DNA from: a virus
Length of the DNA stretch: 29,884 nt
IMG/VR virus record: IMGVR_UViG_3300030390_001110
Coordinates: 1 to 29,884 of that record
Direction: 5' to 3' (one strand)
Program-made: the position numbers and the translations under genes
The notes under the pieces: model-generated
Databases searched by the model: none
Told to the model about the DNA's origin: nothing
The model's input: the letters and a program-made list of their open reading frames with translations, nothing else
Part shown: positions 859 to 23,778 of the stretch, one piece after another
How the letters are laid out: every line of letters begins with the position of its first letter
How positions within the stretch are numbered: position 1 is the stretch's first letter

Positions 859-866
859 CATAAATA
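859..866 (+). promoter_or_regulatory. T4-type late promoter, leaderless start
   Basis: CATAAATA on the plus strand is followed by GTAAT and then the ATG at 872. By T4 geometry the +1 base is the A of that ATG, so the mRNA would be leaderless. No Shine-Dalgarno sequence is visible upstream. Confidence 0.65.
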
Positions 867-3333: not shown

Positions 3334-4497
3334 CTATGTTTTGGTTGTGGTATTCTCATATGTTCGGTTGAACTGATTATGCACTCTTACAAATGTTGCA
3401 CAACGCATAAGGTGTTTTAATCTTTTAGCACCTGCGTATGTGCAAGTTGATCTAATGCCACCTAAAATATTTTGTATTGTATCTGCAACTGCTCCACGAT
3501 ATGGAACTAATACTTCACGACCTTCGCTACTACGATAGTCTTTAAGGCCACCAAAATGTTTTGTATTTGCTGCATCTGAACTCATACCATAAAATGCTAT
3601 AAAGTTCTTTTCTTCAAAATGTGGAACGTATGTTCCTTCAGGTGTTTTATATGCTCCACCTGTTGCTGTATGTTTTGTAATAATTTCGCCACCGCCTTCA
3701 TTGTGTCCTGCTAACATTCCTCCTAGCATTACATAGTCAGCACCGCCGGCAAAAGCCTTAGCAACATCACCAGGGCAAACACAGCCGCCATCAGCAATAA
3801 CATGTCCGCCAAGTCCGTGAGCTGCATCGGCGCATTCCATAACAGCACTAAGTTGCGGATAACCTACACCAGTTTGAATACGAGTGGTGCAAACACTACC
3901 TGGGCCAATTCCAACTTTAACAATATCTGCTCCATTTAGAATTAACTCCTCTGTCATTTCTCCTGTTACTACATTACCTGCTATAATTACTACATTAGGA
4001 TATTCTTTTCTAAACAATCTAACAAAATTACTAAATCGTTCACTGTAACCATTTGCTACATCAATACAAACATACTTCATGCCTTTGCCTGATTGTTCAT
4101 ATACCTGAGCAAACTTTTCAGAATCTTTTGGCATAATACCAATACTCATTGCTACATATTCTTTACGGTCAATACTATCTGTTCCAAAGTATGCAGCTAA
4201 ATGGTTAACACTGTATGTCTTAACTAAACAAGTCATAATCTTTTGCTGTGCTAATTCATCTGCCATTTCAAATGTTCCAACACCATCCATGTTACTTGCC
4301 ATAATAGGCACACCTCTGAAGTGTCTTACTGCATGTGGGCCTGGCGTTGATTCTGTTGTTACAACAGTTGGATCTTTATAGTTACGAAATGTAAATCCAC
4401 GTTCTAACCCAACACTTTTGCGTGAACCTAATGTGCTACGCTTTGGTCTAATTAATACATCACTGTAGTCTAGTTTAGTATCTTCTTCAATTCTCAT
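3334..4497 (-). CDS. guaC: GMP reductase
   Basis: This enzyme reduces GMP to IMP with NADPH, feeding guanine nucleotides back to the purine branch point. The 387-residue product tracks E. coli GuaC (347 residues) nearly end to end: [30 protein letters not shown], the IMPDH/GMPR loop [11 protein letters not shown] with catalytic Cys203, and [19 protein letters not shown]. Length differences come from two insertions, about residues 41-60 and 265-290. It follows and overlaps a small gene by 11 nt and is the last gene of the unit starting at 6027. A weak 5-bp hairpin begins at its stop codon. In a phage it would adjust GTP and IMP pools; IMP dehydrogenase is less likely given the GuaC-type flanks. 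Confidence 0.94.
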
Positions 4498-7257: not shown

Positions 7258-7779
7258 CTATTTCACACGTCCAATTACTCTATTGTTTTGAGTATTTATC
7301 GTTTCATACTCAGCTTCTAGCATTTCTGCGAAGTTTTTCAATAGATCTCTTGCCATGTCTTGTCGGCCCCTTTCGCGACCTTTTAAAACAACAGTCACCG
7401 TGACTTTTGCTTTTTGTTCTAAAAACTTTTTAGCACGATTTGCCTTAGTTTGTAAGTCATGCAAATCTATGTTAAGCCCCATTCGTATCTCTTTTTGATC
7501 TACTACGTTTTCACGTTGGCGTTTTTTAGCTTCTTTTTCTTTTTGTTTCTGTTCATACAAAAACTTATTCATTTCCATTATTCTACATAATGGCGGATCG
7601 ACTTTAGGATTTATAAGTATTAAATCTAACTCTTCGTTCCTTGCTTGTTGTAATGCACTATTTAAGGGCATTACTTTTGATTCGCTATCTCTAGCTATTA
7701 CTCTAACATCGGTTGCTCTGATCCTATCATTTGCAATTACTCGATGTGCAGGATTTTTATGAATTCTATGTTGCTTCAT
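7258..7779 (-). CDS. infC: Translation initiation factor IF-3
   Basis: A full-length, two-domain IF-3 (173 residues). The N-domain opens ANDRIRATDVRVI and carries LILINPKVDPPLCRIMEMNKF; the linker FLYEQKQKEKEAKKRQRE follows. The C-domain has KEIRMGLNIDLHDLQTKANR, KFLEQKAKVTVTVVLKGRE and ARDLL. IF-3 binds the 30S subunit, prevents 70S association and proofreads start codons, and it normally disfavours leaderless mRNAs. Host IF-3 usually has tyrosine-glycine before KFLY ('MDYGKFLY'); here it is MEMNKFLY. The start at 7779 has AAAGGG four bases upstream, right after the clpX stop. With bS21 it forms a ribosome-targeting pair. IF-3 is unusual in phage genomes. Confidence 0.95.
   Translation of the reverse strand: MKQHRIHKNPAHRVIANDRIRATDVRVIARDSESKVMPLNSALQQARNEELDLILINPKVDPPLCRIMEMNKFLYEQKQKEKEAKKRQRENVVDQKEIRMGLNIDLHDLQTKANRAKKFLEQKAKVTVTVVLKGRERGRQDMARDLLKNFAEMLEAEYETINTQNNRVIGRVK
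7293..7300 (-). promoter_or_regulatory. Candidate internal late promoter for bS21
   Basis: GATAAATACT inside the 3' end of the IF-3 gene. The predicted start near 7287 would give a 37-nt leader for the bS21 gene at 7250, allowing bS21 to be made late without IF-3. Confidence 0.5.
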
Positions 7780-7780
7780 A

Positions 7781-8980
7781 TTACCCTTTTATCATTAATG
7801 GTGAGTGTCCATTAGTTATTGTCTCATCTGTTATAATAATTTTAGTAACTCCGCTTTCTCTTAATTGTGGTAACTGGTATTGTGTTTCAACAAGTGCCGA
7901 ATCCAGTATTTTTCTTAAACCTCTAGCACCGAGGTCCTGTTCTATTGCAATATTGGCAATATCTTCTAATGCTTTTATATTAAACTCTATTTCTATTTTG
8001 TCAAGTGAAAAAAGCACTTTTATTTGATCTATTATGGAATCTTGTGGTTCTGTAAGGATTTTTACTAATTCTTCCTTGGTTAATTGATGTAAAACGTTAA
8101 CACTAGGTAATCTTCCTACAAATTCTGGTATAAGTCCATATTGCACTAAATCACGTGTTTGTAGGTGTAATTCCCAATTATCTAGTTGTTCTTGCTTATC
8201 ATCATTAAAGCCTATTTTACTTTGTCCAATACGTTGCTTTACAAGTTCTTCTAATCCTATAAATGCACCGCCCACGATAAACAATATATTAGTTGTATCT
8301 ACGTCTACTTTTTCTGGGACTTCACCTGGTTTATTAGGAACTTTTACTGTAACACCTTCCATTAATTTTAATAGACTTTGTTGCACACCTTCGCCACTTA
8401 CATCACGACTTAATGTTACCATATCATTACGCTTTGCTTTTTTATCAATTTCGTCTACATATATGATACCTAATTGTGCTTTTTCAACGTCATAATCAGA
8501 TGCTTGTAATAACTTATCAAGTAACACTTCTGTGTCATCACCAGCATATCCGCTTTCAGTAATAGTAGTTGCATCTGTAACTACAAAAGGAACATCTAAA
8601 AACTTAGCAAGTGTCTGTGCTATTAGTGTTTTTCCTGTTCCTGTAGGGCCTGCAATTAGAACATTATTCTTTTGTAAGTTAACTTGCGTAGTGTTCATAA
8701 TACGCTTGTAATGGTTGTATACAGCTACACTAAGCGTCTTTTTAGCACGATCTTGTCCAATGACATATCTATTTAAGTGTTCATGTAATTGTGCTGGTGT
8801 AGACTGTTTAAGCCTAGTAATAATTGTAGGCTTATTAATCTCTTTAGCTTTTTCTTTAATTAATATATCATGACAAAGATCTACACATCCATCACAGATA
8901 TGTGTCCCATCATTACCTGCTAACAGTTTTTTAGTCTGGTGCTTGTCTTTACCGCAAAAATTACAGTATGGATTATTCAT
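7781..8980 (-). CDS. clpX: ClpX protease ATPase subunit
   Basis: A complete 399-residue ClpX. The N-terminal zinc domain has Cys6, Cys9, Cys29 and Cys32; Walker A is GPTGTGKT (111-118) and Walker B is IIYVDEIDK. The pore-1 loop is GYAG (144-147), and sensor 2 lies in DLGARGLRKIL. The ClpP-docking tripeptide IGF is kept (256-258). The pore-2 region differs: where E. coli has a GGRKHPQQEF loop, this protein reads NKPGEVPEKVDV and has no RKH, the residues that help recognise ssrA tags. It would unfold proteins and feed them to ClpP. The gene overlaps the unknown gene before it by 8 nt and is followed 2 nt later by IF-3. Confidence 0.96.
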   Translation of the reverse strand: MNNPYCNFCGKDKHQTKKLLAGNDGTHICDGCVDLCHDILIKEKAKEINKPTIITRLKQSTPAQLHEHLNRYVIGQDRAKKTLSVAVYNHYKRIMNTTQVNLQKNNVLIAGPTGTGKTLIAQTLAKFLDVPFVVTDATTITESGYAGDDTEVLLDKLLQASDYDVEKAQLGIIYVDEIDKKAKRNDMVTLSRDVSGEGVQQSLLKLMEGVTVKVPNKPGEVPEKVDVDTTNILFIVGGAFIGLEELVKQRIGQSKIGFNDDKQEQLDNWELHLQTRDLVQYGLIPEFVGRLPSVNVLHQLTKEELVKILTEPQDSIIDQIKVLFSLDKIEIEFNIKALEDIANIAIEQDLGARGLRKILDSALVETQYQLPQLRESGVTKIIITDETITNGHSPLMIKG

Positions 8981-12149: not shown

Positions 12150-12157
12150 TATTTATA
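12150..12157 (-). promoter_or_regulatory. Late promoter, leaderless start
   Basis: Perfect TATAAATA followed by CTAAT and the ATG at 12144. This is the clearest case of the octamer-N5-ATG arrangement. Confidence 0.8.
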
Positions 12158-12179: not shown

Positions 12180-12770
12180 TTATACTTTTCTAACGACTAC
12201 TTTATCGGCTAATCCAAAGTCTACTGCCTCTTGTGCTGACATAAAGTTATCACGTTCCATGGCTGCAGATAGTTCTTCATATGTCTTGCCTACGCTATTA
12301 TGTGTAACATAAATTTCTGTTAGGTTCTTTTTTATTTTAAGAATTTCTTTTACTTGAATTTCCATGTCTGTTGCTTGTCCACCTGCACCACCACTTGGTT
12401 GGTGAATCATTGTGCGTGAATTTGGTAATACAAGACGTTTACCTGGTTCACCTGCTTGTGCAAGGAAACTACCCATGCTACATGCTTGGCCCATTACAAT
12501 TGTGCTTATAGGAGATTTAATAAATTGCATTGTATCATAAATTCCAAGTCCGGCTGTTACTCCACCACCTGGGCTGTTTATATAAAAGTTAATATCTTCA
12601 CTACTATTTTGTGATTCTAAAAACAACATTTGTGCAACAACTAAATTTGCTGTCATGTCGTTTACTTCTCCAGTTAACATTACAATACGATCTTTTAATA
12701 GTCTACTGTAAATATCATAACTGCGTTCTCCTCGTCCGGTCTGCTCGACCACCATTGGTACCAATGCCAT
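12180..12770 (-). CDS. clpP: ClpP protease subunit
   Basis: A complete 196-residue ClpP without a long propeptide. The catalytic serine is Ser98 in [10 protein letters not shown], the histidine is His123 in [10 protein letters not shown], and the aspartate is Asp174 in [19 protein letters not shown]. The handle region and the oxyanion glycines in [17 protein letters not shown] are intact. It should form the 14-mer peptidase that pairs with ClpX, whose IGF docking loop is preserved at 8.2 kb. The start [20 protein letters not shown] matches the mature N-terminus of bacterial ClpP, and GGAG lies eight bases upstream. It ends the sigma70 unit starting at 13995. Confidence 0.97.
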
Positions 12771-15983: not shown

Positions 15984-16172
15984 TTAATTTTCTGAAAGTA
16001 TTTTTATAAAATATTCTCGTTTAGAATACTTATATATGTGAACCCAGTTATGTCTTGGGTCTGCTGTTCTTAGGAATTCTTCATAGTAATAGTATGAGCA
16101 AAAAACTACTTTTCCACTGCTCATACGTTTGGGCATCCATGTCCATTTTTTATCAGATCTTATGGGGTTCAT
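15984..16172 (-). CDS. Small basic protein of unknown function
   Basis: A 62-residue basic, aromatic-rich protein (KKWTWMPKRMSSGKVVFCSY, then a run of tyrosines, and a KREYFIKILSEN tail). It may be a small beta-barrel or zinc-free nucleic-acid binder; no family is recognised. It overlaps the phosphomannomutase gene by 20 nt and stops just before a strong terminator, which supports it as the last gene of the operon. A start at the internal ATG 16136 is also possible. Confidence 0.55.
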   Translation of the reverse strand: MNPIRSDKKWTWMPKRMSSGKVVFCSYYYYEEFLRTADPRHNWVHIYKYSKREYFIKILSEN

Positions 16173-16881
16173 ACATTTGTGTTAAAATGCGATATGTGTC
16201 TTGCCATTCTTTTACTGCAAATACAGTATGTCCCATACCTATCAATGCTTCTGCAATGTCATGATCATTGCCGCCTTTCATAGTTTTATCACCAAAGAAA
16301 ATTATTTCTTCGTATTCTGTAAAATCTTTGAGTATTTGTGCTTTACCACAGTTTTTTTGTGTTATATCTAAGCCAGTTTCTCCTGCTACAGTTGACATGA
16401 TATTATGTTTATCTCCAAAGTGTGTATTAAACTCTGCTGATATGTTTTCACGTTCTTTATGATATGTATCATATAGAATATAGTCTTTGCGTTGATCTTC
16501 TGTAGCCTTTCTGCCAACAACACTAAAATTTAACATACCAGGACGTTCTTCAAAGTGTAATCCTGCTCGTTGTCCAAATCCACTGTGATTTAATCTATTT
16601 TCTAAATACTTCCAAGGCTCTTCTGGTAAAGTCCATTTATTAGTATATATATTTTCAAAGTTTTCGTATATATCATTGCCACTGCAATTGTATACTCGTT
16701 TAGCACCACTATAGATAATATTACCTACTTGCTCAACTGTTTTATCTTGGTCACTTCCTGTAACTATGTATACATTATTATTTGTGCAAAAGTCATAGAA
16801 AAATCTATTAAATTTTTCGTCCATTCGTTTACGACTTGGTGTTAGCGTTCCATCAACATCAAATAGATATGCAGTCTTCAT
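16153..16881 (-). CDS. Eukaryotic-type phosphomannomutase (HAD family)
   Basis: A 242-residue HAD-IIB protein close to human PMM2 and yeast Sec53 in motif content. It has YLFDVDGTLTPSRKRM (nucleophile Asp8, acid Asp10), VTGSDQDKTVEQVG, RPGMLNFSVVGRKATEDQR and FFGDKTMKGGNDHDI. PMM interconverts mannose-6-phosphate and mannose-1-phosphate, the precursor of GDP-mannose. Most bacteria use the unrelated alpha-D-phosphohexomutase, so this type is uncommon in their phages. The start at 16881 overlaps the SWIM gene stop (ATGA); an in-frame codon at 16896 lies inside that gene. It may supply sugar nucleotides for the glycosyltransferase-like protein at 29-820, or act as a sugar phosphatase. Confidence 0.9.
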   Translation of the reverse strand: MKTAYLFDVDGTLTPSRKRMDEKFNRFFYDFCTNNNVYIVTGSDQDKTVEQVGNIIYSGAKRVYNCSGNDIYENFENIYTNKWTLPEEPWKYLENRLNHSGFGQRAGLHFEERPGMLNFSVVGRKATEDQRKDYILYDTYHKERENISAEFNTHFGDKHNIMSTVAGETGLDITQKNCGKAQILKDFTEYEEIIFFGDKTMKGGNDHDIAEALIGMGHTVFAVKEWQDTYRILTQMYEPHKI

Positions 16882-17138
16882 TGTGCAAACTCCCATCTAT
16901 ATTGTGGATGTTTATCGTCTAATGCTATTTCTACTCTTGTTAGCACTTCTAAACTATGCTTGCACTTGCCACGGAATGTAAAGCCTGGACAATCACAGGT
17001 AAAACCTTTGTCTGTGCAGGTAACATCATATGTGTCTGTGCCTTTTGAATTAGGCTGTTTCCATATCAAGCCTTCAAACACAGAACCTTTTGGTTTAAAC
17101 AACGTTGGTTTAAGATATCGTTGTGTAAATTTAGCCAA
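16878..17138 (-). CDS. SWIM zinc-finger protein
   Basis: An 86-residue protein with a SWIM motif, CxCxnCxH: Cys48, Cys50, Cys59 and His61 in TCDCPGFTFRGKCKH. SWIM domains bind DNA or proteins and occur in recombination-linked factors. No in-frame ATG exists near the beginning. The start is TTG at 17138, supported by AAGGAG seven bases upstream. It overlaps the phosphomannomutase ATG and lies 11 nt after a small gene. Confidence 0.85.
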   Translation of the reverse strand: MAKFTQRYLKPTLFKPKGSVFEGLIWKQPNSKGTDTYDVTCTDKGFTCDCPGFTFRGKCKHSLEVLTRVEIALDDKHPQYRWEFAQ

Positions 17139-18758: not shown

Positions 18759-18766
18759 TATTTATT
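18759..18766 (-). promoter_or_regulatory. Late promoter, leaderless start
   Basis: AATAAATA, then GTTGT, then the ATG at 18753. Confidence 0.68.
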
Positions 18767-18989: not shown

Positions 18990-19146
18990 AGCTTTCCAAA
19001 TTTGTTATTTGGGCTTCTGCTGCCCATTCGGCTAATAAATTTACCGATTGTTTAGTTAAATGAGGTGATTGTCTTTTGATTTTTATTTGCCAATCAGCAA
19101 ATAATTTTTCATGTAATCTTGTTTTTTGTCTTTTACCTAGAAACAT
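18958..19146 (-). CDS. Small basic helical protein
   Basis: A 62-residue protein, basic at the N-terminus (MFLGKRQKTRLHEKLFADWQ) and helical throughout. No family is recognised. The start at 19146 has a strong ribosome site (AAAGGAG) six bases upstream and lies 32 nt downstream of a consensus sigma70 promoter. It is therefore probably an early gene, co-expressed with the zinc-ribbon protein it overlaps. Confidence 0.62.
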   Translation of the reverse strand: MFLGKRQKTRLHEKLFADWQIKIKRQSPHLTKQSVNLLAEWAAEAQITNLESYDKLTDATST

Positions 19147-19177
19147 AATTCTCCTTTATTATAATAAACTAGTATGT

Positions 19178-19206
19178 ATTATAACAAGAAGTCTTGGTTT
19201 TGTCAA
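19178..19206 (-). promoter_or_regulatory. Consensus sigma70 promoter with operator in spacer
   Basis: TTGACA (19201-19206) and TATAAT (19178-19183), spacer 17 bp, with CAAGACTTCTTG at 19185-19196. It shares a 19-base block with the 17739 promoter apart from a single base near the -35 box. Confidence 0.9.
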
Positions 19207-19207
19207 C

Positions 19208-19705
19208 CTATTGTTTTTTGGTATCTTTTCCTTTGATTACAAAGGCTTCTGGTTCAACTTTTTGAACCTTTTGATCTACAAATATACCTAATTGGCATAT
19301 ATAGAACCCTGTAAATGATGGTTTCCATGTTCCTGGATAGATTGTTTTTGGCATGAATAGTGCAAATTGTGTTTTTATATTTTGTGCTGGTTCTGGCCTT
19401 ACTGGAACTGGTTTTGCTAAATGGACTGGTGTTAGTGTAATAATATCAGCTGTTTCTTCATTGTATAAATGAACATCAAATCCAGTCATATTACATTTTA
19501 CATATCTATCGTATGTGCCTTGAAACTCTAAAACTGGATCACCATCATAAACTGGTTGTAGTATTGCACCACGTAAGTTTTCTAATGGATGAGCTTGTTG
19601 TAATTTAGCATACGAATAAACCATACAAGACAAGCATGCGATCAATAGCACTAATGCTGTTGTAAGTGCATATGTCACTATCTTGTCTTTTTTATATATG
19701 TCCAT
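19208..19705 (-). CDS. Membrane-anchored protein of unknown function
   Basis: A 165-residue protein with a short basic cytoplasmic head (MDIYKKDK), one membrane helix (about residues 11-33, ALVLLIACLSCMVYSY) and a periplasmic domain of beta-strand character (YVKCNMTGFDVHLYNEETAD, FTGFYICQLGIFVDQKV). Two cysteines in the domain could form a disulfide. No lipobox is convincing. The ATG is 5 nt from a late octamer. I do not recognise it; a spanin-like or exclusion role would be a guess. Confidence 0.6.
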   Translation of the reverse strand: MDIYKKDKIVTYALTTALVLLIACLSCMVYSYAKLQQAHPLENLRGAILQPVYDGDPVLEFQGTYDRYVKCNMTGFDVHLYNEETADIITLTPVHLAKPVPVRPEPAQNIKTQFALFMPKTIYPGTWKPSFTGFYICQLGIFVDQKVQKVEPEAFVIKGKDTKKQ

Positions 19706-19710
19706 AATGC

Positions 19711-19718
19711 TATTTATC
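19711..19718 (-). promoter_or_regulatory. Late promoter, leaderless start
   Basis: GATAAATA, then GCATT, then the ATG at 19705. Confidence 0.65.
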
Positions 19719-19720
19719 TA

Positions 19721-20074
19721 TTATTCAATATTAAGTTGTCCTTCAAAATCTGCTACAAGAGTTTTCATTTCTTCAACTGTAATTCTAAAATTCCAGCTAC
19801 TAAATTGTATAGCAACAAAACTTGCTGGTTTCATTTCTGGTCTTGGTCCAAAGCTACGTTCTTCCCAAAACACTTTTCCCATCCAAGTTTCAATGCCGTT
19901 TACACCGCCATTGTTCCATTGTTCACAGATAATCTGCATATCTGGTATACTTACTCTTTCAGTTATTACTGCTCTGTCTGATACACGAAAGCTAAGTTGA
20001 ACTGAGTTTTCTTTTTCAAAAACGTAGAGTTTAATTGGTTTAGTAAAGGGTAAAAAATTATCTAACTGTGTCAT
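19721..20074 (-). CDS. Phage hypothetical protein
   Basis: A 117-residue alpha/beta protein containing SFRVSDRAVITERVSIPDMQ, CEQWNNGGVNGIETWMGKVF and FVAIQFSSWNFRITVEEMKT. No family is recognised. It overlaps the preceding gene by 17 nt, so it is translated from the same late transcript that starts at 20924. Confidence 0.58.
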   Translation of the reverse strand: MTQLDNFLPFTKPIKLYVFEKENSVQLSFRVSDRAVITERVSIPDMQIICEQWNNGGVNGIETWMGKVFWEERSFGPRPEMKPASFVAIQFSSWNFRITVEEMKTLVADFEGQLNIE

Positions 20075-20810
20075 ATGCGTCCTTTAATTGGTTTACTTTA
20101 TCTACATCATATTCTTGATGTTCATTATAATCTTTGATATATGCGTCTATCCATTCTCGTGATGGTGATTCTATTCCAACGCTTTCCCATAATGTATAAA
20201 TTTCTGGTGCTTGCATCCATTGTGGTTGTTTTATAAATCTATCTGTGTTACGACTTGCTATTACACTGTCATATTTCATACGTTCTACAAACTTTTCTGC
20301 TACTTCTTGCGTTCCTGGCCAAACATGATCATACCCACTATAATTAGCATTCTTATCATCTTCCATTAGATAGTTATACTCTCTGGCTGCCCATGTTTGC
20401 ACTGCCTCACTCCATTGGCTAATAATTGGATTTACTATAATAACATTCTGTGTTCTACTCCATCTCCAAACATCTTCAAAGTTTTGAGCATGTAACAATA
20501 ATGCAATTGAATATTTTTTGCTTATATTAAGTAACCCATTTAATTGCTCTTCTGAAATATTCATTTCATTACGAATATCAAAGTTATACCATTTTTTATC
20601 TTCGTCGTCTAAATTCCAGTAATCATCATGCACTCGTATTTTACCCAATGGACCTGCTTCATGATCTACTTCTTTGCCGTCTAATTCATAACCTGCCCAA
20701 TGTTGTCCTGGACCACTTGTTCCATATAAATCAGGACTATTGTTCAGTAGATATGGTATTTCCATTTGGTTGATACAACTTTGGCTCACTACCAAATATA
20801 ATGTGTGCAT
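20058..20810 (-). CDS. Phage hypothetical protein, sulfotransferase-like size
   Basis: A 250-residue soluble protein (MHTLYLVVSQSCINQMEIPY at the start). It contains EVDHEAGPLGKIRVHDDYWN, SIALLLHAQNFEDVWRWSRT, NVIIVNPIISQWSEAVQTWA and YNYLMEDDKNANYSGYDHVW. The strand pattern around residues 95-130 resembles proteins that modify surface or small-molecule substrates, but no P-loop or catalytic motif can be fixed. The ATG at 20810 has AAGGAAAG upstream. The transcript is predicted to begin with an 88-nt stem-bounded element, so this gene may be specially regulated. Confidence 0.55.
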   Translation of the reverse strand: MHTLYLVVSQSCINQMEIPYLLNNSPDLYGTSGPGQHWAGYELDGKEVDHEAGPLGKIRVHDDYWNLDDEDKKWYNFDIRNEMNISEEQLNGLLNISKKYSIALLLHAQNFEDVWRWSRTQNVIIVNPIISQWSEAVQTWAAREYNYLMEDDKNANYSGYDHVWPGTQEVAEKFVERMKYDSVIASRNTDRFIKQPQWMQAPEIYTLWESVGIESPSREWIDAYIKDYNEHQEYDVDKVNQLKDAYDTVR

Positions 20811-20835
20811 GCTTTTTCTTTCCTTGTTAATTAAT

Positions 20836-20923
20836 TAGGGTAAAACTTTCCGATAGCTATATTCCAGAGGGTGTTGACATGCAAGCAATGAATCTCTACC
20901 CGGGCCAAGTTCGTTTTACCCTA
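20836..20923 (-). promoter_or_regulatory. 88-nt stem-bounded leader element
   Basis: Perfect 11-bp inverted repeat TAGGGTAAAAC / GTTTTACCCTA closing an 88-nt region that is richer in G+C than its surroundings. Inside are GGGT / ACCC and AGAG / CTCT complementarities and CCCGGG. A late octamer at 20930-20937 predicts transcription from 20924, one base before the stem. The RNA would thus begin with this closed structure, about 25 nt before the ATG at 20810. It does not match a riboswitch class that I can recall. Confidence 0.6.
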
Positions 20924-20929
20924 TGTTAA

Positions 20930-20937
20930 TATTTATG
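20930..20937 (-). promoter_or_regulatory. Late promoter before structured leader
   Basis: CATAAATA overlapping the stop codon of the oxygenase gene. The predicted +1 is 20924. Confidence 0.62.
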
Positions 20938-21682
20938 CCTCAATATAAAATTGTATATTGATTCCTGTTTTTAAAGAGTTAAAATTTGGACGTTTACGTG
21001 TTACACAACTTGCATGTAACTGGCATGCATCAAATACTAATGCATTACCTGGTTGAAATGGAAACACTGCTTCTAAATCAAAGTCACATATATTATCCTT
21101 GGCTATGTGTGGAAATATATAATCTGTTTCTGTTAATACTGGTGTATCTATTATTTCAAAGTTTGGATATTCACGTGAAATCTCATACATACTCTTATCT
21201 TGTGAGCTTTGCCCAACACGGTCAAACGTTATGCTTGTGCCAATATAACGTTGTTTAAAAAATGCTGTATAGGCTTCTGCACCTGATGTAATACCTAGTG
21301 GAATTACACAACTTTTATAAGGTATTAAGTTTTCTGCCCAATCAAACTGTGTTTCTGCTTCTGTCATTAAGTCTACATGTGCATCATGTAGTTGTGTAGT
21401 AATATAATAGTTACCTGTGTGATACTGACTAAAGTCATGTTTTAGTATTGATTCAAATTTATCTTGTAACCATGAAAAGTCTTCAAACAGTCGTGTAACA
21501 TTTAATATAGGTTGTATATTGCTACTAGTATCTGTCCAACGCAAATCATCTGCATTTTGAAATTGATACAAAGTTAACTGATGTAACTCGTCAGCTGTAA
21601 ACACATTTTCTTCACACCGTGCAGGTTCAAAGTTTTTTATAATAGTATCTCTATGTGTTTTAATTAGCTCTTGGTAACTCAT
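20933..21682 (-). CDS. 2OG-Fe(II) oxygenase-type protein
   Basis: A 249-residue protein with hallmarks of the double-stranded beta-helix oxygenases. It has TQLHDAHVDLMTE (His-x-Asp), SCVIPLGITSGAEAYTAFF, then PFQPGNALVFDACQLHASCV (distal His) and LKTGINIQFYIEA at the end. The position expected for the 2OG-binding Arg or Lys falls in the R/K-rich TRKRPNFNSLK segment. Substrate unknown; phages use such enzymes for protein, nucleic-acid or small-molecule hydroxylation. It overlaps the ferredoxin reductase stop (ATGA), which suggests that the reductase supports it or neighbouring iron enzymes. Confidence 0.7.
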   Translation of the reverse strand: MSYQELIKTHRDTIIKNFEPARCEENVFTADELHQLTLYQFQNADDLRWTDTSSNIQPILNVTRLFEDFSWLQDKFESILKHDFSQYHTGNYYITTQLHDAHVDLMTEAETQFDWAENLIPYKSCVIPLGITSGAEAYTAFFKQRYIGTSITFDRVGQSSQDKSMYEISREYPNFEIIDTPVLTETDYIFPHIAKDNICDFDLEAVFPFQPGNALVFDACQLHASCVTRKRPNFNSLKTGINIQFYIEA

Positions 21683-22464
21683 TGTTCTACAAATGCTCTC
21701 TCTACTACATAAGTTCCAGGTGTTTTATTATTACCTTCTTCAAACCCTTTGCCTTCTAACCATTTTACTAGCTCATTATTCATTGGAATACTTCCACATA
21801 TCATAACTCTATCTTGTTCTGGGTCTAGTTCTGGTAAGTCTAGTTTTTCTTGCACTTTACCTTCATACATTGCATCAGTTACACGACCTTTATTTTCATA
21901 AAGTTGTCTTGTTACTGTTGGATAAAATTTAAACTTGCCTTCAGTTACGTGTTGGTATATTTCATCTTCGTTTAGGTTTCTAAACATTGCATCAAATGGA
22001 AGTTCTGCAACTGTTCTTGCACCCCATACTAATATTACATTTTCATAATATTCATATGTGTCTACTCCACGTGCTATAGATAAAAACGGTGCAACACCTG
22101 TTCCTGTTGCTAGTAAATATAGATTACGTCCAGGTTTTACATTTGTATTAACTAATGTGCCTACTGCTTTGTCATTAACTAATATCTTATCACCAGGAAC
22201 TACGTGTTGTAGTTTACTAGTTAATGGTCCTTCTTGGACTTTGATACTATAAAATTCTATTGTTTCTTGATGGTTGGGACTTGCTACGCTGTATGCTCGC
22301 ATTATTGGTTTATTTCTTTGTAGTTTTTCAGACCAATTATTTAATCCAATCATTACAAATTCGCCATCTCTGAATCTTAATCCAGGATCACGTGCTACTG
22401 TGAAGTGGAAGAGGTCGTCAGTATAGTGTTGAACCTTTAAAACTTCAAGTTCTAAAATTGCCAT
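21679..22464 (-). CDS. fpr: Ferredoxin--NADP+ reductase
   Basis: A 261-residue bacterial-type flavodoxin/ferredoxin reductase. The FAD site is MRAYSVASPNHQETIEFYSI and the isoalloxazine/NADPH region is LLATGTGVAPFLSI. EQDRVMICGSIPMNNELVKW follows, and the tail YVVERAFVEQ is typical of proteobacterial Fpr. It moves electrons from NADPH to ferredoxin or flavodoxin, which radical-SAM enzymes in this window would need. The start at 22464 (MAILELEV) has CGGAG six bases upstream; frames reaching 22608 would cross the promoters. It has both sigma70 and late promoters in the divergent control region. Confidence 0.95.
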   Translation of the reverse strand: MAILELEVLKVQHYTDDLFHFTVARDPGLRFRDGEFVMIGLNNWSEKLQRNKPIMRAYSVASPNHQETIEFYSIKVQEGPLTSKLQHVVPGDKILVNDKAVGTLVNTNVKPGRNLYLLATGTGVAPFLSIARGVDTYEYYENVILVWGARTVAELPFDAMFRNLNEDEIYQHVTEGKFKFYPTVTRQLYENKGRVTDAMYEGKVQEKLDLPELDPEQDRVMICGSIPMNNELVKWLEGKGFEEGNNKTPGTYVVERAFVEQ

Positions 22465-22476
22465 TGTTTCTCCGTG

Positions 22477-22545
22477 TATAAATATGATTACTACTTTATT
22501 TATTATAAGTAGATCTTGACAAATTGTCAACCTTATTATATAATA
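22477..22545. promoter_or_regulatory. Divergent promoter hub with shared -35 palindrome
   Basis: Two consensus sigma70 promoters face away from each other. Plus strand: TTGACA 22516-22521, 17 bp, TATAAT 22539-22544. Minus strand: TTGACA 22525-22530, 17 bp, TATAAT 22502-22507. Their -35 boxes form one palindrome, TTGACAAATTGTCAA (22516-22530). Late octamers are also present in each direction: TATAAATA plus at 22477-22484 and AATAAATA minus at 22497-22504. The plus sigma70 start falls at or next to the ATG at 22551, again predicting a leaderless mRNA. Confidence 0.88.
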
Positions 22546-22550
22546 TAAAC

Positions 22551-23087
22551 ATGATATATACAACCAAGTTAACCAGTCCGACTCCACAATTAATAAATTT
22601 TTTAACAAAATGTGATAGTTTAGGATATAAAAATAATAACTCGCTTAAAGCTATGAAGTTTGAGTGGTGTTTGGAAGAGGGTGGCATGTGGTTTGCAACA
22701 CATGACAGTGAAGATGAAATTATTAGTCTTAGTGGAATACATCCATTTAAAGATGGTTGGCGTGTATTATTCCGTGGTGCTCAACTTGAAAGTAGGCCAT
22801 GTGGATTAAACAGATATCATATGCAAAGTTATTGCTTTCATAGTCAGTTACCGTATCAAATTGAATGGGCTAAAGGTCATTCAAAATCTGAAAATCCATT
22901 TTTATATATAACAACAAATACAGATACTGATCAAAGTGGCAGAATGCAAAAAGTTAATAAAACTTTTTTAACACTAGAAAGATATGATATTGTATGTTGT
23001 TTAGGCAAAGAAGAGATATTTAATGTCAACCAGAATGTATGGCTATTAGACATAAAGAACTATGAAGGGGTAAGAAATGGATCTTAA
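22551..23087 (+). CDS. GNAT-like acetyltransferase-fold protein
   Basis: A 178-residue protein whose strand-helix order suggests a GNAT fold. It has MKFEWCLEEGGMWFATHDSE, EIISLSGIHPFKDGWRVLFR, CGLNRYHMQSYCFHSQLPYQ, FLYITTNTDTDQSGRMQKVN and KTFLTLERYDIVCCLGKEEI. The ITTNTD-to-LERYD part recalls the C-terminal half of GNAT enzymes, but the acetyl-CoA loop (R/Q-x-x-G-x-G/A) is not clear. It is the first gene of the plus-strand operon, begins about 7 nt after a perfect -10 box, and overlaps the AMP-binding gene by 11 nt. It may acylate or hydroxamate a pathway intermediate. Confidence 0.5.
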   Translation: MIYTTKLTSPTPQLINFLTKCDSLGYKNNNSLKAMKFEWCLEEGGMWFATHDSEDEIISLSGIHPFKDGWRVLFRGAQLESRPCGLNRYHMQSYCFHSQLPYQIEWAKGHSKSENPFLYITTNTDTDQSGRMQKVNKTFLTLERYDIVCCLGKEEIFNVNQNVWLLDIKNYEGVRNGS

Positions 23088-23778
23088 ACTAACTGATTGG
23101 GTATTCAAAGGCGGTGTAATACTTAGTAGTGGAACTACTGGTAAGCCTAAAAAAATAGATCAAAGTATTAATAAAATAACAGCGGCAAATAAAGTTGCTG
23201 TTAAATGCCAAAATATAACCAGTGATAGTAGAATATACACTGTTTGTAAAACAGAACATGCAGGTGGATTATTAGCCCAAACATTGCCTGGATATACAGT
23301 AGGTGCTCATATTGACATAGAACCTTTTAATGCTTATACATTCAATAGTAAAATTAATGACTATACGCATACACATTTAACACCTGCACATTGTCGTGCA
23401 TTAATGGGAACTAAGAATTTTTGGAAACTAGATTTAAGTAATATTTGGGTTACTGTAGGAAGTGATCCAGTTGGTTGGGATATTATTGAAACCTTTGTAA
23501 AACAAGGTGCTACATTTATGGCTAATTGGGGTATGAGCGAAGTAGGCCCTACTGCTATTAACACTGTATTTCGTAATATGGACGATGTTGCATATTATCA
23601 AGAACATGCAATACCAGATGCAACTATTCTAGGAGATAATTTTTATTGCGAATGGGATATTGTAGATGGCAAGTTTTTTGTAAGTGGTGACATATGTGTT
23701 TATAGTGGTTGGCTTAATACACATGATGATGTTGTAGTAAATTCTCAAGGAACCTTGTATTACAAAGGAAGAAAGTGA
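23077..23778 (+). CDS. Minimal AMP-binding (ANL) adenylation core
   Basis: A 233-residue ANL-superfamily fragment-like enzyme. The phosphate loop A3 is intact (LSSGTTGKPKKI, residues 16-27). A5 is NWGMSEVGP (150-158), A7 is SGDIC (203-207), and the protein ends at GRK, exactly at the A8 hinge. It therefore lacks the usual N-terminal 120-150 residues and the whole mobile C-terminal domain with the A10 lysine. The start at 23077 has AAGGGG six bases upstream. The open frame shows no sign of decay. It may bind ATP and an acid but need a partner to adenylate it. The full-length ANL protein at 26169-27596 is the obvious candidate. Confidence 0.82.
   Translation: MDLKLTDWVFKGGVILSSGTTGKPKKIDQSINKITAANKVAVKCQNITSDSRIYTVCKTEHAGGLLAQTLPGYTVGAHIDIEPFNAYTFNSKINDYTHTHLTPAHCRALMGTKNFWKLDLSNIWVTVGSDPVGWDIIETFVKQGATFMANWGMSEVGPTAINTVFRNMDDVAYYQEHAIPDATILGDNFYCEWDIVDGKFFVSGDICVYSGWLNTHDDVVVNSQGTLYYKGRK

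Follow-up and report, generated by a model that had tools for sequence, protein, structure and literature searches.

A structured leader RNA family, unmatched in Rfam 15, at the predicted start of a late operon of marine phages

On the evidence of comparison among relatives, the leader of an operon on the minus strand of IMG/VR virus record IMGVR_UViG_3300030390_001110 (positions 1 to 29,884, the whole stretch analysed, hereafter the window) is a real structured RNA family that is absent from Rfam 15. The element is 88 nt long (20923 to 20836) and is closed by a perfect 11-bp stem, P1, whose arms pair without mismatch and enclose 66 nt (Table 1). A preliminary description of this DNA had reported an 88-nt closed stem-loop one base past a predicted transcription start, followed by a ribosome site and a gene; the stem-loop was confirmed, on the minus strand, with its stem established by compensatory change in relatives, and the layout was borne out in the sequence. 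Comparison shows that the fold is P1-P2a-P2b-P3, that the core hardly varies, on which strand the RNA lies, that each record carrying it has one strong copy, and that this copy always lies just past a TAAATA-type promoter. Our preferred reading of its function, to which we give a probability of roughly 45%, is that the leader is a 5'-terminal clamp with a recognition core, opening the mRNA of one late operon in a group of marine phages that carry replication genes of T4 type.

Table 1. Parts of the leader RNA and neighbouring features in the window.
Feature	Positions	Strand	Remarks
Upstream gene	20933-21682	-	2OG-oxygenase-like by eye only; no Pfam hit
Late-promoter-like octamer CATAAATA	20930-20937	-	overlaps stop codon of upstream gene
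Predicted +1 (A)	20924	-	sixth base past octamer; from T4 geometry and the ATG-at-six signal
P1, 5' arm UAGGGUAAAAC	20913-20923	-	both-sided change in each of the nine P1 pairs modelled
J1/2 (GAACU)	20908-20912	-	variable
P2a, 5' arm (UGGC)	20904-20907	-	100% paired, 18 distinct rows; 1/4 pairs changed on both sides
P2b, 5' arm (CC)	20902-20903	-	97% paired; 0/2 pairs changed on both sides
P3, 5' arm (GGGU)	20898-20901	-	93% paired; 4/4 pairs changed on both sides
P3 insert AGAGATTCATTGCTTGCATGTCAACAC, 27 nt	20871-20897	-	last two bases are part of P3 3' arm
P3, 3' arm (ACCC)	20869-20872	-
P2b, 3' arm (GG)	20864-20865	-
3'-side bulge, conserved A first	20858-20863	-	A in 17/18 rows
P2a, 3' arm (GCUA)	20854-20857	-
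J2/1 (UCGGAAA)	20847-20853	-	GGA in 18/18 rows, unpaired in model
P1, 3' arm GUUUUACCCUA	20836-20846	-
Shine-Dalgarno (AAGGA)	20821-20825	-	predicted unpaired; pairing probability 0.09 over six bases scored
250-aa gene	20058-20810	-	ATG at 20810; structural model weakly sulfotransferase / P-loop kinase-like
Family-2 gene	19721-20074	-	next in operon; downstream of RNA in most loci inspected

The minimum-energy fold of the window leader recovers the 11-bp stem, but the energy by itself was unremarkable and would not prove it, with z-scores against shuffles of -1.04 over 116 nt (33/200 shuffles as good) and -1.49 over 89 nt (16/200). The decisive evidence is comparative and proves the stem: compensatory changes, which the preliminary description had proposed to look for in related leaders, were strongly present, both in aligned pairs (14/19) and when P1 arms were exchanged. 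Pairs were counted in an alignment taken from a covariance-model alignment (20 matches out of 22 sources supplied, giving 18 distinct rows) and, as this alignment was fitted to the structure, its pair counts are inflated; 92.0% of 324 cells were paired, 14 of the 19 pairs showed change on both sides, and cells with both-sided change numbered 70 against 23.5 in shuffles, with 0/500 shuffles as high on any measure. Sliding the partners by 1-3 columns left 30-51% paired. The exchange of P1 arms among 13 clade representatives is independent of that alignment, and here the arms paired with their own partners summed to -178.2 kcal/mol against an exchanged mean of -76.0 (sd 11.5), and none of 20000 permutations was as low as the own-partner sum. 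In a table of 16 leaders the own partner ranked first of 16 in 11, and second to fourth in L070, L074, L077, L081 and L094. One stem pair that is A-U in the window is C-G in L002. Since G-U cells (30) exceeded A-C cells (9), an RNA on the strand of the downstream gene is favoured. Unconstrained single-sequence folds missed the comparative model in six leaders (L001, L002, L062, L066, L077, L106). An additional three-pair helix, beginning at columns 29 and 78, reached a score of 0.77 but was left out of the model, since it falls in the P3 loop, where the alignment is poor. The MAFFT alignments A3-A7, in which P2a was shifted by one or two bases from clade to clade, were set aside for pair counting.

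Among relatives the core UGGCC ... GGA ... GCCA-N-CGGA was nearly invariant. The consensus begins with a TAAATA-type box, followed after about six bases by P1 (any sequence), a variable J1/2, P2a, CC and P3; P2a is formed by UGGC with GCCA, GCUA or GUCA, or else by UGAC with GUCA, and P3 is a hairpin of variable sequence and length, usually followed by AUA or similar. A GG that pairs with the CC comes next, then an A-led bulge of about five bases, the 3' arm of P2a, any base, C or A, GGA, and A or C, and the unit closes with the 3' arm of P1, a Shine-Dalgarno sequence (SD) and ATG. The P3 insert AGAGATTCATTGCTTGCATGTCAACAC is confined to the window clade and to L074/L076, whose copies show no more than one change; other clades carry a short variable hairpin. 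The P1 of L074/L076 differs completely from that of the window clade, and this 27-nt stretch is near-identical between phages whose neighbouring proteins are about 53% identical. A 9-nt complementarity between the insert CUUGCAUGU and a stretch of 16S rRNA, which we take to be conserved and to lie near the 16S 5' end, has an estimated chance expectation of about 0.1 and was dropped.

Three close relatives (L001, L002 and L027/L062) carry the same leader. From P2a to GGA each is identical to the window at 54 of 59 bases, and fourfold sites of the 250-aa gene match in the same relatives at 57-70% (30/53, 37/53, 28/47). Profile searches with the 250-aa protein recovered six, and later 26, viral loci, and a small 83-aa protein used as query recovered 37. 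A first covariance model (R1), built from five sequences and seeded by MAFFT alignment A6, found the unseen L041 and L042 records (E about 1e-5) and then matched 21 of 27 sources, its own training sequences counted, with further unseen members among them. The second (R2), built from these 21 matches, reached 23 of the 27, among them L068/L069, and 7 of 17 further loci, so that each model recovered family members it had been built without. The third (R3) matched 30 of 44 whole records, many of them near-identical contigs, with one strong copy each that always headed the same operon; its next matches had E-values of 0.046 or worse. In nine of the 14 unmatched records the small gene lies behind another gene, with no promoter-RNA unit in the 230 nt read. 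L083/L084 (records G024, G025) were missed by all models and are diverged members by eye only. L064/L065 (records G007, G008) keep the promoter but lack the RNA, which is therefore dispensable. The last of the 14 is a Hymenobacter record.

Searched for as an exact pattern, the window motif matched 23 stretches, of which L003 was the one true relative and the others were at chance level by our estimate of the collection size. All 16 stretches from a looser pattern over the viral collection lay on contigs already carrying the RNA, and the sole pattern match in the genome collection, a Hymenobacter contig, was not confirmed by R3. R3 found nothing in phages P-TIM68, HTVC008M, S-SSM7 and Cr30, in a scan run without a positive control, nor in Phosso, Vibrio 2.275.O and Atu_ph07, where the control record G023 did match.

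The predicted start of the transcript was placed from the sequence upstream of P1. In T4 the late promoter TATAAATA is a TATA box of 8 bp that precedes the start by about one turn of the helix, as summarised in PMC2988020. A TAAATA-type box NNTAAATA was present in 21 of 21 leaders, 16-28 nt ahead of P2a; unlike the T4 promoter, several clades carry CTAAATA- or GTAAATA-type boxes, and some boxes lead directly into an ATG. In the window's genome (G000), 6 of 30 ATAAATA sites were followed by ATG exactly six bases on, compared with 0-3 for 20 letter-permuted motifs. Across 40 relative loci, 93 context-distinct sites included 20 with the same spacing, whereas 20 permuted motifs gave 1-8 of 88-212. 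Three of the 20 sites open only 2, 11 and 24 codons, one of these three being a leader itself, and many of the remainder are orthologues of one another. This spacing suggests leaderless late genes whose A would be the +1, and it would thereby fix the predicted +1 of the leader RNA too. ATAAATA sites with this spacing, marking candidate leaderless late genes, lie in the window at 19711-19718, 18759-18766 and 12150-12157 (minus strand) and at 859-866 (plus strand), with others at L036:12907 and 12185, and the arrangement recurs in relatives.

Given the assumed +1, the first base with a pairing probability of at least 0.5 fell at +1 to +4 in all 21 leaders. In many leaders the +1 itself was predicted unpaired, with the stem beginning at +2 to +4, and in some unconstrained folds the pairing near +1 differed from the modelled P1. 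We infer that this promoter is active and that the transcript begins at the base of P1, which would leave the 5' triphosphate end base-paired or nearly so.

Ahead of the RNA stand oxygenase-like genes and reductase genes, in some loci also a gene for a radical SAM protein, and behind it come a small gene, the 250-aa gene, the family-2 gene and others. The small gene, encoding a helical 83-aa protein, stands between the RNA and the 250-aa gene in most clades; it was not found in L073, nor, by a search run without a positive control, in the window clade (G000-G003), which keeps the RNA. In L095, L098 and L106 the 250-aa gene does not directly follow the small gene. Given such variation in the genes behind it, the RNA goes with the promoter and the operon and not with any single gene. 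The 250-aa product had no Pfam or PHROG match at E 0.001, with weak chance-level matches at E up to 1, and its model had no Foldseek match at E 0.001; among the structural hits listed, the best (Z 7.5, to sulfotransferases and guanylate kinases) lay below the level that the tool rates as trustworthy and are too weak for a function. The 250-aa, small and family-2 proteins had no match in 50,697 phage records. At L053 2333-3600 (record G001), genes that by eye resemble a cysteine desulfurase and scaffold (IscS/IscU) come after a second oxygenase paralogue.

G000 carries genes for a ribonucleotide reductase, a DnaB-like helicase, a UvsX-like protein and a DNA helicase. Its UvsX is closest to those of large phages such as Phosso, Vibrio 2.275.O and Atu_ph07 (64-66% identity), and from this kinship the records probably represent pieces of large-phage genomes. 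A DNA search with 701 nt revealed no similarity to named phages, and one at E up to 10 returned only short matches that do not convince. All on the minus strand, the window also encodes a translation-initiation-factor-like protein (7258-7779; phrog_9787, also in G001, G003 and G006, 3/6 records searched), a ClpX-like ATPase with zinc finger (7781-8980), a ClpP-like / head maturation protease (12180-12770), a GMP reductase / IMP dehydrogenase (3334-4497) whose best named-phage matches include Xanthomonas phage XacN1, and a eukaryotic-type phosphomannomutase-like protein (16153-16896), nearest in cyanophages S-SSM7 and P-TIM68.

At gathering score, Rfam 15 gave no leader match in the window, in 6 relatives or in 15 relatives, where four tRNAs were the only hits, and permissive scans of four leaders returned weak hits far below gathering scores; the inability of the preliminary description to match a known riboswitch was thus upheld. 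A literature search at the level of abstracts returned no description of this leader RNA. In the portions of the literature consulted, riboswitches are described as rare in phages (PMC9004378), and a pelagimyophage scan reports no riboswitches and an unsuccessful late-promoter prediction (PMC7029224). Among comparable systems, manA (RF01745), wcaG (RF01761) and PhotoRC-II (RF01717) are described as structured RNAs in potential 5' UTRs from marine metagenomes and cyanophages, including T4-like marine phages (PMC2864571). The present leader is likewise a structured RNA in a potential 5' UTR of marine phages, but it matched none of the three at gathering score, nor did they appear among the permissive hits on four leaders, and unlike them it occurs at one locus only, beginning at a predicted late-promoter +1. 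The phage glutamine riboswitch (glnA motif) of Melnitz and Mosig is a further regulatory RNA of T4-like marine phages (PMC9004378). No glnA match was found to the window leader or its relatives. The glnA fold, as we understand it, also differs from that of the leader.

The position of the stem would link the leader to mRNA stability. Base pairing at the 5' end is reported to slow RNase E cleavage greatly, and B. subtilis RppH to require at least 2 unpaired 5' nucleotides (both PMC3997798). A stem at the very 5' end is a known brake on 5'-end-dependent decay (PMC3997798), and with the SD open in the window, to varying degrees in other leaders, and no terminator-like site listed at the leader (scan of 19000-23500) a clamp is favoured. 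The 5'-terminal stem would deny the RNA end to the pyrophosphohydrolase and to a 5'-end-sensing ribonuclease, so that the message would last longer with its ribosome site still accessible, and the conserved GGA-rich core may be the target of a protein or small molecule by which the clamp is tightened or loosened. Stabilising 5' stem-loops of the ompA/papA type similarly place a stem within a few bases of the start, here a predicted +1, and leave the SD free, as outlined in PMC3997798. The leader differs from these in its invariant internal core, conserved across phages. We know of no such family core in ompA-type stems. Counting against a clamp, a plain stem would suffice, and stabilisation alone leaves the invariant P2a and J2/1 core unexplained; in addition, the +1 is often predicted unpaired, several single folds miss the model, and L064/L065 do without the RNA. 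The preliminary description had offered a stabiliser, a ligand sensor or a protein-binding site: its placing of the element at the 5' end, its structure and its lack of a known family all stood, the 5' stem and free ribosome site favour the stabiliser and the invariant core indicates recognition, whereas the platform of a classical switch was not found.

Ranked behind the clamp is a protein-binding leader, in which a phage or host RNA-binding protein on the core would repress or activate translation or stability, as autoregulation or a late switch. We consider this unlikely, if the best placed of the alternatives. The core is conserved while the P3 tip and the P1 sequence are free, the small helical protein encoded beside the RNA in most clades could be the binder, and two GGA motifs 13-14 nt apart presumably resemble CsrA-type sites. 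Against this, the model pairs the first GG, the above uncontrolled search did not find the small gene in the RNA-keeping clade G000-G003, and the 250-aa gene is not directly downstream in three loci (L095, L098, L106).

Next comes a metabolite riboswitch, in which the core (UGGCC, the GGA bulge and CGGA) would be an aptamer whose ligand controls the operon. Invariant unpaired letters between variable helices, a single copy heading an operon and the phage riboswitch precedents (PMC9004378, as far as that source was consulted) all fit such a switch, but its downstream genes have no known metabolic function and it matches no Rfam riboswitch. Neither platform of the classical type was found: no terminator-like site is listed at the leader, and the SD, with a pairing probability of 0.01-0.81 in other leaders, is not consistently closed. 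A riboswitch acting through a terminator or an occluded SD is accordingly less likely, and we place riboswitch control in general below the protein-binding leader. More doubtful again is a ligand- or protein-gated form of the 5'-end clamp, in which the +1 would lie within or next to the closing stem of an aptamer, so that binding hides the triphosphate end or exposes it to decay; if true, control would run through 5'-end accessibility and not through a terminator or ribosome-site occlusion.

The remaining explanations are far less probable. A self-cleaving ribozyme trimming the 5' end of the transcript would suit the compact conserved core, but no Rfam ribozyme matched at gathering score and the extreme 5' location leaves little to trim. 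Still harder to credit is a leader-peptide attenuator, with the ATG in the P3 insert opening a sensing uORF of 7 codons: its length and stop are the same across the window clade (ATGTCAACA ... TAG), but the insert is absent from most clades and conserved in letters, not codons. An element acting as DNA instead of RNA (operator, origin or recombination site), equally implausible, would account for an inverted repeat adjoining the promoter, but G-U pairs outnumber A-C three to one, and the P1 sequences share only their pairing, so no sequence-specific DNA site is kept in P1.

These results describe an RNA family with good support that belongs to a single late operon of marine phages and has preserved its shape through changes in most of its letters. 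The leader RNA probably protects or controls its late message, and with a predicted start site and a conserved core it is open to synthesis and testing. If the clamp is true, it would become directly testable by what means lytic phages preserve chosen late messages, and whether that protection is under the control of a signal.
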